Shown: positions 29,801 to 36,513 of the stretch, in pieces
How positions within the stretch are numbered: position 1 is the stretch's first letter
Layout: the number at the start of each line of letters is the position of its first letter
From: Sedimentisphaerales bacterium
GTDB taxonomy: Bacteria; Planctomycetota; Phycisphaerae; Sedimentisphaerales; SM23-30
NCBI GenBank assembly: GCA_016930855.1
Contig: JAFGFX010000278.1
Location: 1-36,751 of the forward strand
Length of the DNA: 36,751 bases
Direction: 5' to 3'
Notes under the pieces: model-generated
The model's input: only the letters and a program-made list of their open reading frames with translations
Database searches by the model: none
What the model was told of the DNA's origin: nothing
Made by a program: the position numbers and the translations under genes

Positions 29801-30475
29801 ATGGGTCGAAATGAGCAGATGGAAACCGAACCCGATCCCCAAGCGGGAATAAACTCCCGGGGGGATATGGATCGCCAAGGGGCTGCGAATCCCCAGGGGA
29901 TTACGGATAGGGACTTGGTTGAGGAGGGCCGCCGGGGCGATTCGGCGGCCTTGGGCCGGCTGATCGAGAGGTATCAGCACCGGCTGTTCAACGCCGTGTA
30001 CCGCATGGTGGACAACCGCGAGGACGCCCAGGAGCTGACCCAGGAGGCCTTTGTCCGCGCCCTGCAGGGGCTCAAGAACTTCCGGGGCCAGGCGAGTTTT
30101 TATACCTGGCTGTTCCGGATCGGCATCAATCTGTGCCTGAACCATCGGCGCCGCTGCCGGCCGGTGACCTTTTCGGCCCTGCAGACGCCGGAGACCTTCT
30201 GGGCCAAGCAGGCGGAGGGCCTGCTGGACCTGGCGGCCAAGCATAACGAATCCCCGGCACAGCAGGCCCAGATCCAGGAGATGCACTCCCGGGTGATCGA
30301 GGCCCTGCAGAACCTGGAACCGGCGGCGCGGGCGGTGGTCGTCCTGCGGGATATCGAGCAGTTGGACTACGTCGAGATGGCCCAGGTCCTCAACGTGCCG
30401 GTCGGAACGGTAAAGAGCCGCTTGTTTAGGGCCCGCATGACCCTGCGGGACCAACTGCAAAAACCGGGCCAATGA
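29801..30475 (+). CDS. ECF-type RNA polymerase sigma factor
   Basis: A 224-residue sigma70-family ECF factor. Region 2 spans about residues 47-112: DSAALGRLIERYQHRLFNAV, the NREDAQELTQEAFVRAL core that contacts RNA polymerase, and YTWLFRIGINLCLNHRR for -10 binding. A linker of about 50 residues (QTPETFWAKQAEGLLDLA) follows, then region 4 (about 160-220), with the helix-turn-helix DYVEMAQVLNVPVGTVKSRL. An acidic N-terminal tail of 35 residues precedes region 2. It redirects RNA polymerase to a dedicated promoter set. Its likely partner is the membrane protein 150 bp downstream. No Shine-Dalgarno sequence is clear at ATG 29801; ATG 29819 is an alternative. Confidence 0.93.
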   Translation: MGRNEQMETEPDPQAGINSRGDMDRQGAANPQGITDRDLVEEGRRGDSAALGRLIERYQHRLFNAVYRMVDNREDAQELTQEAFVRALQGLKNFRGQASFYTWLFRIGINLCLNHRRRCRPVTFSALQTPETFWAKQAEGLLDLAAKHNESPAQQAQIQEMHSRVIEALQNLEPAARAVVVLRDIEQLDYVEMAQVLNVPVGTVKSRLFRARMTLRDQLQKPGQ

Positions 30476-30626
30476 TAAAGATGTTCAACAAAACGAATCG
30501 CACCTGGGCCACATGCGGTATATCTGGGTGGCACCGCCAAGCGCATCTTGGGGGTGATGAAGACAAACCAGGGCGTTTTATTCCGTAAGGACCAATAGGC
30601 GATTGGTGTGATGCCCGCTCGCCGCC

Positions 30627-33855: not shown

Positions 33856-33879
33856 AAGTGAAACATAAAGGAGCCAATC

Positions 33880-36513
33880 GTGTCTGGTTGCAAACGAACC
33901 CTTCCTTTTGCCGTCGTCCTTGCCGGAAGCCTCGCCGCGGTTCTCTCGTTTCTGCTGATCTTGGGTCCCGGCTGTTCCACACCGACGCCGGAGGATGACC
34001 GAACGCCGGCCGTCTCGAGAACGGAGCCGGCGGAACCTGCCCCTTCTCCGGATACCGTAACGACCGCCCCGGTGGACTCCGGAGAGGTTGACTCTCTCTC
34101 GGTTTTGTCGCCGTCGCAGGCCCAAAAAAGGGAACTCGTCGAACTGTCGGAAGAACACCGGAAGACCGATTTCGGCGCCGTGGTGACGGCCGAGCCCGGG
34201 GTGGTCGCCAACCAGAGCGTCACGGCCACCTTCGATACCGACGGTGACGGTCGCGCCAGTTCCTGGGGAGACTACCAATACGGCCTAGCCGAACCGGGCG
34301 GCATGGGCGGCATGGGCGGCATGGGCATGGGTGGTTACGGGGGCGGCCGGATCGCCCCGCCTCCCTTTACCGGCCGGCCGAGCATCTCTTCGGAAAGCCA
34401 ATTGTCCCTTAAGACGGAAGACTACCAGCGGTCCGCCGAGACGGAGTTGTTGTATCGCCGATTGGACAAAAAACAGGATGCCTATTGGTATAGCACTCAT
34501 CCGGCCAAAACCGTCGAGGAAAGTCTGCTGGCAGGCACCCAGCGCTCACCCCGGCAGGCGCCGGCGTTTCCGGCCGACTTGGCCTACGTCATGGCCGACG
34601 AGATCTGGGTCATCTGCCGGCCGCCGGCCCCGCCGTCGCCGCCGCCGGATGACGGCCCCGGCTCCGGCTGCCTGATGGCCAAGCTGCCCGATCAAGACAA
34701 GCAGGTGGCCCTGCCCCTGCGGCACACCGACGTCCAGGCCCGCATCACCGGCTACATCGCCTCGGTCGATGTCACGCAGAACTTCCACAATCCCTACGAC
34801 GCCAAGATCGAGGCGGTGTACGTGTTTCCCCTCCCGCAGAACGCCGCCGTCAACGACTTCGTCATGACCATCGGCGACCGCACGATCCGCGGCATCATCC
34901 GCGAACGCCAAGAAGCCGAGCAGATCTACGCCGCCGCCCGGCGGGAGGGCCACGTCGCGTCGCTGCTCACCCAGGAGCGGCCCAACATCTTCACCCAGAA
35001 GGTGGCCAACATCGAGCCGAAAAAGCAGATCGACGTCCGCATCCACTATTTCAACACCCTGGCCTACGTCGACGGCTGGTACGAGTTCGTCTTTCCCCTG
35101 GTGGTTGGTCCCCGGTTCAACCCGCCCGGCTTCACCGAGGGGGTCGGGGCCGTCGGCCGCGGCAAGACGGGCATCTCCGGCCAGGACACCGAGGTCCAGT
35201 ACCTCAAGCCCCACGAGCGCAGCGGGGCCGACGTCGCGTTGACCGTCGAGTTGGACGCCGGCGTCTCCATCGAGCAGATCAAATCCACCAACCACGTCAT
35301 CACCCAGGAGCAGCCCCGGCCCGAGCAGGCCGTCGTCAAGCTCAGCCCGCTTGACACGGTTCCCAACAAGGATTTCGTCCTGCGCTACAAGGTCGCCGGC
35401 CGGCGCCTCAAATCCGCCCTCGTTACCCACCGCGACGAGCGCGGCGGCTTTTTCACCCTGATGCTCTACCCGCCCGAGCAGACCCGGCACGTCCGGCGCG
35501 CGCCCCTGGAGATGGTGTTCGTGCTCGACTGCTCCGGCAGCATGAACGGCAAGCCCATCGAGAAGGCCAAGGACGCCGTCAAACGCGCCCTGCGGTGCCT
35601 CCAGGAGGGCGACACCTTCCAGGTCATCCGCTTTTCCAACAACGCCTCCACCTTCGGCCCCGCCCCGATCGCCGCCACCAGGGACAACGTGCAAAAGGCC
35701 ATCGAGTACGTCGAAAATCTCCGCGGCAGCGGCGGCACCATGATGATCGAGGGCATCAAGACCGCCCTCGATTTTGCCCACGATCCCGAGCGCTTCCGCT
35801 TCGTCTGCTTCCTGACTGACGGCTACATCGGCAACGAGGCCCAGATCCTCGCTGCGGTCCACGAGCGTCTGGGCGCGTCCCGCATCTTCAGTTTCGGGGT
35901 GGGTACCTCGGTCAACCGCTTTCTCATCGACCGGCTCGCCAAGATCGGCCGGGGCGCCGTCGCCTACATAAGCCTGGACGACGACGCCACCGACGCCGTC
36001 GATAGCTTCTACGAGCGCATCCAATACCCGGCCTTGACCGACATCGAGATCGACTTCGGCGGCATGCAGGTCGCCGAGGTCTATCCCCGGCGGATCCCGG
36101 ACCTGTTCGTCGGCCGGCCGGTCATCGTCACCGGCCGCTTCCAGGGCGACGGCAACGCCACCGTCAAAGTCAAAGGCAAACTCGCCGGTAAAGACTACCG
36201 GCAGGAGTTCTCCCTGAACCTGGCCGAGCCCGCCGCCGCCGGTCATGAGGCCCTGGCCTTCGTCTGGGCCCGCAAAAAGATCGAGCAGCTCTCGCTGATC
36301 GAGAGCGCCGATGCCGCCGCCGCCGCCCAGGCCGGCGTCGATCTACCCGCCCAGATCAAGGACCTCGCCCTGGAGTACTCGCTGATGAGCCGCTATACCG
36401 CCTTCGTTGCGGTGGATTCCTCCCGCCGCACCGAGGGCGATCACGGCGTGATCGTCCCCGTCGCGGTCCCGGTCCCGGACGGCGTCCGTTACGAAACCAC
36501 CGTCCAGGAATAA
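33880..36513 (+). CDS. VIT and von Willebrand factor A domain surface protein
   Basis: An 877-residue exported protein. A hydrophobic segment (about 11-29, ending in LILGPGCSTP) is a signal peptide or membrane anchor; the Cys is a weak lipobox candidate. An acidic Pro/Thr linker follows, one EF-hand-like loop DTDGDGRASSWG (119-130), and a Gly-Met run (about 140-157). The VIT domain spans about 282-390 (DVQARITGYIASVDVTQNF, then ERQEAEQIYAAARREG). The vWA domain spans about 545-735, with the MIDAS motif DCSGS (Asp550, Ser552, Ser554) and FLTDGYIGNE. The C-terminal YTAFVAVDSS segment is typical of inter-alpha-trypsin-inhibitor-like bacterial proteins. The start is GTG 33880 with AAAGGAG 6 bp upstream. 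Metal-dependent protein-protein binding at the cell surface is likely. Confidence 0.9.
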   Translation: MSGCKRTLPFAVVLAGSLAAVLSFLLILGPGCSTPTPEDDRTPAVSRTEPAEPAPSPDTVTTAPVDSGEVDSLSVLSPSQAQKRELVELSEEHRKTDFGAVVTAEPGVVANQSVTATFDTDGDGRASSWGDYQYGLAEPGGMGGMGGMGMGGYGGGRIAPPPFTGRPSISSESQLSLKTEDYQRSAETELLYRRLDKKQDAYWYSTHPAKTVEESLLAGTQRSPRQAPAFPADLAYVMADEIWVICRPPAPPSPPPDDGPGSGCLMAKLPDQDKQVALPLRHTDVQARITGYIASVDVTQNFHNPYDAKIEAVYVFPLPQNAAVNDFVMTIGDRTIRGIIRERQEAEQIYAAARREGHVASLLTQERPNIFTQKVANIEPKKQIDVRIHYFNTLAYVDGWYEFVFPLVVGPRFNPPGFTEGVGAVGRGKTGISGQDTEVQYLKPHERSGADVALTVELDAGVSIEQIKSTNHVITQEQPRPEQAVVKLSPLDTVPNKDFVLRYKVAGRRLKSALVTHRDERGGFFTLMLYPPEQTRHVRRAPLEMVFVLDCSGSMNGKPIEKAKDAVKRALRCLQEGDTFQVIRFSNNASTFGPAPIAATRDNVQKAIEYVENLRGSGGTMMIEGIKTALDFAHDPERFRFVCFLTDGYIGNEAQILAAVHERLGASRIFSFGVGTSVNRFLIDRLAKIGRGAVAYISLDDDATDAVDSFYERIQYPALTDIEIDFGGMQVAEVYPRRIPDLFVGRPVIVTGRFQGDGNATVKVKGKLAGKDYRQEFSLNLAEPAAAGHEALAFVWARKKIEQLSLIESADAAAAAQAGVDLPAQIKDLALEYSLMSRYTAFVAVDSSRRTEGDHGVIVPVAVPVPDGVRYETTVQE

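Follow-up and report, generated by a model that had tools for sequence, protein, structure and literature searches.

A conserved planctomycete gene cassette in which a cohesin-dockerin pair may switch a transmembrane ECF sigma factor system

The stretch of DNA analysed here, hereafter the window, is the 36,751-nucleotide contig JAFGFX010000278.1 of a Sedimentisphaerales bacterium (Planctomycetota; assembly GCA_016930855.1). Six contiguous genes lie on the forward (+) strand towards its end, and gene order in related genomes identifies the last four of them (31941-36513) as one conserved unit: ECF2, an extracytoplasmic function (ECF) sigma factor; DOC, a predicted single-pass membrane anti-sigma factor with a C-terminal dockerin; COH, an exported cohesin-like protein; and VIT/vWA, named after its VIT and von Willebrand factor A (vWA) domains. 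We propose that this four-gene cassette probably works as a membrane signalling switch, with DOC as the anti-sigma factor of ECF2, COH docked on DOC, and an operon that limits its own response. Sequence, genomic context or prediction support the unit itself, the cohesin and dockerin folds, the membrane topology, a promoter nearly exclusive to the cassette and, by homology, the anti-sigma role of DOC. We give about even chances to the broader claim that cohesin-dockerin docking serves here to switch a transmembrane ECF system, not to build surface complexes, with COH as a regulator, the VIT/vWA lipoprotein completing the sensor and this operon as the only strong target of the sigma factor, in a system spread over Planctomycetota, Verrucomicrobiota and Lentisphaerae.

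The six window proteins were compared by tblastn with 15 loci that come from 14 genomes of the order and represent three families. In these 14 relatives ECF2, DOC, COH and VIT/vWA are neighbours in unchanged order as far as the contigs extend, and the ECF2 orthologues upstream of DOC show 48-61% identity. ECF2 itself (31941-32483; 180 residues) matches Sigma70_r2 (1.2e-13) and Sigma70_r4_2 (1.7e-17) in Pfam as well as TIGR02937, all over cut-off, and consists of regions 2 and 4 without regions 1 and 3, as expected of an ECF sigma factor. Of 118 genomes of the order, 17 have COH, two of them by a weak match, as do 18 of 246 genomes of the phylum. When the COH alignment was used to scan named genome contigs, nearly all of them metagenome assemblies, it returned 73 loci, mostly from Planctomycetota, with others from Verrucomicrobiota and Lentisphaerae and single contigs labelled Fermentibacteria, Acidobacteria and Kuenenia, an assignment that follows bin labels alone. 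Where the upstream flank was available, DOC was present in 58 of 59 loci and ECF2 in 51 (43 on the same strand, 8 divergent); VIT/vWA followed in 50 of the 52 loci with a downstream flank, and all four genes were found in 36 of the 43 with enough flank. Because COH served to select the loci and cassette members to build the profiles, these counts describe COH-bearing loci; some of the named loci are also the same contigs as the 15 relative loci, and the two sets are not independent. When neighbours were clustered across 80 loci, no other gene occurred in more than seven, ORFs (open reading frames) antisense to the cassette aside.

Some loci depart from the common layout. In Planctomycetaceae/Fuerstiella-type loci (L137, L139, L145-L148, L150 and L151) ECF2 is divergent from DOC-COH-VIT/vWA, and the sigma factor and the operon are therefore transcribed separately there. 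Two distant loci (L094 and L095) carry genes for an ECF factor, a zinc-motif anti-sigma-like protein and a cohesin-like protein with no VIT match; the ORF that follows in its place reads like a cyclic-nucleotide-binding protein kinase.

DOC (32628-33314; 228 residues) combines a basic N-terminus, a single transmembrane segment read from the sequence (32796-32861, with an arginine run before it) and a C-terminal type I dockerin domain (33135-33278; DIDRSGRVDILDAFLLARHID ... DVTGDGQVNQNDV), which scores 27.3 bits against Dockerin_1 (PF00404; Pfam gathering cut-off 22.9), the type I profile with two calcium loops. A helix reading DILDAFxLAR is conserved in the DOC dockerin. Among 69 DOC homologues, 62 have a strong transmembrane segment and 66 are predicted to keep the N-terminus inside by the positive-inside charge distribution. 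All 14 aligned DOC members match Dockerin_1, and their profile finds cellulosomal dockerins in the PDB. No RsgI domain was detected in any DOC member scanned, and neither DOC nor COH members match RseA or RseB (MucB) in Pfam. ECF2 adjoins DOC or lies just upstream of it in most loci. In distant genomes, counterparts in the DOC position (L096, L163, L169 and L094) carry the Hx3Cx2C zinc anti-sigma motif ahead of the transmembrane segment, and that of L096 joins zf-HC2 (1.8e-9, over cut-off) and Dockerin_1 (7.6e-9) in one protein. Since this motif occurs in same-position counterparts elsewhere, DOC most likely serves ECF2 as its anti-sigma factor.

A bipartite motif recurs ahead of DOC across loci; it was first found by plain word counts and is missing from shuffled sequences. 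The refined position weight matrix (PWM) reads TGAAC[C/T]TTT, 15 bases, CTTAA, at a median of 57 bases before the DOC start, and exceeds 12 bits in 84% of 76 pre-DOC regions against 0% of shuffles, the former figure being optimistic since the matrix was built from its own test sequences. The site starts after the ECF2 stop codon in 37 of 49 cases; no such site precedes COH or VIT/vWA, and one precedes ECF2 in 16%. An AAC triad followed by a T-tract in the -35 element is a described feature of ECF promoters (PMC6056542). Searched across 20 cassette genomes, the strict motif gave seven matches, six of them the pre-DOC promoter and the seventh (L177) with no clear downstream gene. In a search for further regulon members, dockerin genes especially, a relaxed motif matched 22 times, compared with 8 times in the reversed control; contig and position identify eight of these 22 as cassette promoters, and little stands out beyond them. 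Judged by its sequence, the motif is an ECF-type promoter whose strict form is nearly exclusive to the pre-DOC site in cassette genomes. The window itself holds a degenerate candidate ECF2-dependent promoter (CGAAAC ... GCTACA; 32575-32608) where relatives have the conserved site. One 6.5-Mb chromosome, CP070782.1, contains two ECF2-DOC-COH copies (L100 and L170) with the promoter motif at each.

COH (33314-33784; 156 residues) is a signal peptide followed by a small beta protein, and in the window it has no Pfam match over cut-off. Its AlphaFold2 model, computed from an alignment of 14 sequences, is a beta sandwich with a predicted local distance difference test (pLDDT) score of 85.4; in a Foldseek search of the PDB the top 33 places are all taken by cohesins (best 2xdh, E 4.9e-4; TM-scores mostly 0.45-0.6), and the model of a second, fused COH homologue gave the same cohesin fold matches. 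The COH profile was also compared by hhalign with a reference profile of 11 aligned Pfam cohesins from planctomycete genomes, giving a probability of 94.5% over 99 columns, against about 1% or less for unrelated cassette profiles, at most 2.5% for shuffled cohesins and 10.6% for reversed ones. At the sequence level the COH profile found no match in the PDB. By predicted fold and by profile, then, COH is cohesin-like. The window genome, an assembly 84% complete, contains no Pfam cohesin and nothing scaffoldin-like was found; COH is a single domain, where a cellulosome calls for several cohesins.

The genes for DOC and COH overlap by an exact TGATG (TGA 33312-33314, ATG 33314-33316). At locus L086 the two are fused into one 265-residue protein with no second signal peptide, so that dockerin and cohesin belong to one chain and both lie outside the membrane. 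The fusion was seen once, in a metagenome-assembled genome. A similar fusion was sought in relatives of the genome G118, for which one other genome of its order gave no match. Against a model from which it had been left out, the cassette dockerin reaches 77 bits, whereas 20 further dockerin regions in the same genome and the dockerin protein at 26348-27967 score 21 bits at most. Distance matrices of the dockerin and COH correlate at 0.50, with a partial correlation of 0.32 given ECF2 and VIT/vWA, a modest value that partly reflects shared history. DOC and COH probably bind each other, given their near-constant adjacency, the fusion, the divergence of the cassette dockerin and the lack of a Pfam cohesin in the genome. 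A first-pass annotation, made from the window's letters alone, had called COH cohesin-like, a call that predicted structure and profile comparison now bear out where Pfam alone gave no support. It had also taken the membrane dockerin protein for an anti-sigma factor with the dockerin as its outer domain, which is probable in view of the zinc-motif homologues, the near-universal adjacency and the shared ECF-type promoter. Its choice of the adjacent cohesin-like protein as the dockerin's partner is likely, given the natural fusion and that same adjacency. On the reverse strand of the window, a 539-residue protein (26348-27967, -) ends in a C-terminal dockerin of a different kind (VDLKDLAALANAWL), unlike that of the cassette.

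The last gene of the cassette (33880-36513; 877 residues, GTG start) encodes VIT (PF08487; 4e-37) and VWA_3 (5e-18) domains, both over the Pfam cut-offs. Its metal-ion-dependent adhesion site (MIDAS) motif, DCSGSM/T/DG, has residues invariant across homologues, and a lipobox in most of these makes the protein a probable lipoprotein in most members. The C-terminus in the window, VPDGVRYETTVQE, holds no sorting signal. An EF-hand-like loop noted near the N-terminus of the window protein (DTDGDGRASSWGD) was dropped as not conserved. In 4 of 74 VIT/vWA proteins (L049 and L057, the same loci as L111 and L124, together with L102 and L158) the N-terminal spacer ahead of the VIT domain carries a secretin signature, vPlLGDiPvvGxLF, which is missing from the window protein. 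A strict form of the pattern was found in 3 of the 74 and in 0 of 739 other ORFs, and the L057 protein matches Pfam Secretin at 2.9e-4, under the cut-off. Going by this signature, a link of VIT/vWA to a secretin is conceivable.

Taken together, these elements suggest how the switch would operate. The N-terminal segment of DOC would hold ECF2 at the inner face of the membrane, with one transmembrane helix connecting it to a dockerin that faces the periplasm. COH, small and exported, would dock on this dockerin as a dedicated partner, much as RseB does on RseA, while the co-expressed and mostly lipid-anchored VIT/vWA protein would probably contact COH or an envelope target. An envelope signal might then shift the state of the DOC-COH pair and free ECF2, which would fire the promoter before DOC and yield more DOC, COH and VIT/vWA. 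Such a response would be self-limiting because the inhibitor, DOC, sits in the induced operon.

Several results weigh against this proposal. No zinc motif is present in the window DOC, whose N-terminus matches no Pfam anti-sigma family; the absence of the motif is not decisive, because about half of the membrane-bound class I anti-sigma factors are without it (PMC7406223). ECF2 has no match nearby in 8 of the 59 named loci with upstream flank, and the promoter site in the window is weak (a PWM score of 3.6 bits, 51 bases before the DOC start, with p=0.004 for this position in shuffles). No COH member scanned reaches the Pfam cohesin gathering threshold, and only one of 14 gives any match (E=0.039). 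In 6 of 69 DOC proteins the first calcium loop is not recognisable. Finally, the predicted fold of the fusion (predicted TM-score, pTM, 0.62) has a confident cohesin and a low-confidence dockerin, and so shows no interface, the dockerin part having been folded without relatives since MAFFT had misplaced the dockerin rows.

These points have to be set beside other explanations of the same genes. DOC and COH might form a structural surface complex for adhesion or enzyme tethering, similar to the proposed planctosome, with ECF2 merely turning the operon on and the dockerin signalling nothing to the sigma factor. In its favour, freshwater Phycisphaerae have been proposed (PMC6461901) to form cohesin/dockerin complexes unrelated to cellulose, the VIT/vWA protein is of a surface type, and 33 Dockerin_1 places at E<=0.01 in the window genome could dock too. 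This explanation is nevertheless unlikely in view of the placement of DOC, which follows directly on ECF2 as an anti-sigma factor would, spans the membrane once with its N-terminus inside and has zinc-motif counterparts; COH, moreover, is one small domain in a genome with no other Pfam cohesin, and the cassette dockerin is unlike the other dockerins.

Alternatively, DOC could be the anti-sigma factor while COH binds some other ligand, a glycan or a protein, and the dockerin something else again, so that the two share no more than an operon. The divergence of COH from Pfam cohesins, the loss of one calcium loop in some dockerins and the lack of a predicted interface in the fusion model would all fit such separate ligands. 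Against them stand the near-universal adjacency of DOC and COH, the natural fusion that puts both domains on one chain and on the same side of the membrane, and the dockerin-COH correlation, which persists beyond ECF2 and VIT/vWA within the limits given above; we consider this explanation somewhat less probable still.

The first-pass annotation had grouped all six genes into one regulatory module with two sigma factors, which has very little left in its favour beyond the shared strand and contiguity in the window genome, as the cassette neighbourhoods of the 14 relatives lack the pair formed by the first two genes and this pair is found across the order beside purB, in genomes with and without the cassette. 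Its domain calls and gene order did stand, with the two ECF sigma factors, Dockerin_1 and the MIDAS-containing VIT/vWA protein found by Pfam where it had placed them, all six ORFs at its coordinates, and the TGATG overlap is as it described. The expected conservation of gene order thus holds for the last four genes and fails for the six. It became clear from the comparison of loci that the six genes make up two units. ECF1 (29801-30475), an ECF sigma factor, and ASF1 (30627-31916), its predicted anti-sigma factor (NCBIfam antisigma 1.5e-12, under its cut-off), form a separate pair at 29801-31916: ASF1 gave no tblastn match in any of the 15 cassette loci, 98 of 116 genomes in the order have a homologue of it, and ECF1 and ASF1 homologues adjoin in 11 of 11 relative loci checked, with a divergent purB in 8, a layout that matches window positions 28081-31916. 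Among the genomes examined, the pair adjoins the cassette only in the window genome. The part that the annotation had given this pair in the module is not supported; as a conserved arrangement the six-gene module is refuted, and a local functional link in the window species is possible. A search of the region for repeats found nothing past chance-like GC-rich matches.

The closest parallel to the proposed switch is the rpoE-rseA-rseB operon of the E. coli sigma-E envelope stress response, which likewise arranges a sigma factor, a single-pass anti-sigma factor and an adjoining exported partner. RseB binds RseA in the periplasm (PMC8103513), at the periplasmic domain of RseA, as proposed for COH on DOC. 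The cassette differs in having no match to the RseA or RseB families, in a contact that would be of the cohesin-dockerin type, in the added VIT/vWA gene and in a conserved promoter placed between the sigma and anti-sigma genes. That the state of surface assembly is reported to the sigma factor, as had been suggested earlier, is a guess; a dedicated accessory regulator of the RseB kind is the closer parallel, because neither a further Pfam cohesin nor a scaffoldin-like protein was found in the genome.

The earlier comparison with RsgI holds only in outline. In cellulosome-forming clostridia RsgI is a membrane-bound anti-sigma factor that senses through an extracellular module (PMC6056542, PMC3413522), and DOC too would be a membrane anti-sigma factor carrying an outer module. 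The sigma class differs, sigma-I being without the region 4 that ECF2 has, and the listed RsgI modules are CBM3, CBM42, CBM35, PA14-like or glycoside hydrolase (GH) domains, whereas that of DOC is a dockerin; nor does a multi-cohesin scaffoldin accompany the cassette, in contrast to the clostridial cellulosome systems. The planctosome, a peptide-degrading surface complex proposed for Phycisphaerae with noncellulosomal cohesins and dockerins (PMC6461901), shares with the cassette the occurrence of both modules in this class without a cellulosome, but the cassette dockerin belongs to a probable anti-sigma factor and its cohesin is a single small exported protein. The anchor of the planctosome model is a lamin-tail protein (PMC6461901), with which a 1723-residue ORF elsewhere in the window (11941-17112, +), containing three lamin tail stretches and a bacterial Ig domain, may be compared. 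VIT/vWA shares its domain architecture with TIGR03788, a family of marine proteobacterial sortase targets; the window protein scores 495.3 bits, under the cut-off of 551.65, lacks their C-terminal signal, and no sortase-like gene recurs nearby.

Our literature search found no ECF system that pairs a dockerin-bearing anti-sigma factor with a cohesin partner; key papers on ECF groups and noncellulosomal cohesins lay outside it, and the novelty is provisional. Planctomycetes possess many ECF factors, which have been little studied, and the cassette contributes a defined set of sigma factor, predicted anti-sigma factor and promoter from this group, the promoter occurring nearly once per genome. 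Cohesin-dockerin pairs are known best as structural connectors, and many of those outside cellulosomes have no assigned role. A conserved cassette that would tie such a pair to an anti-sigma factor offers a concrete and testable case, comprising two proteins, one sigma factor and one promoter.

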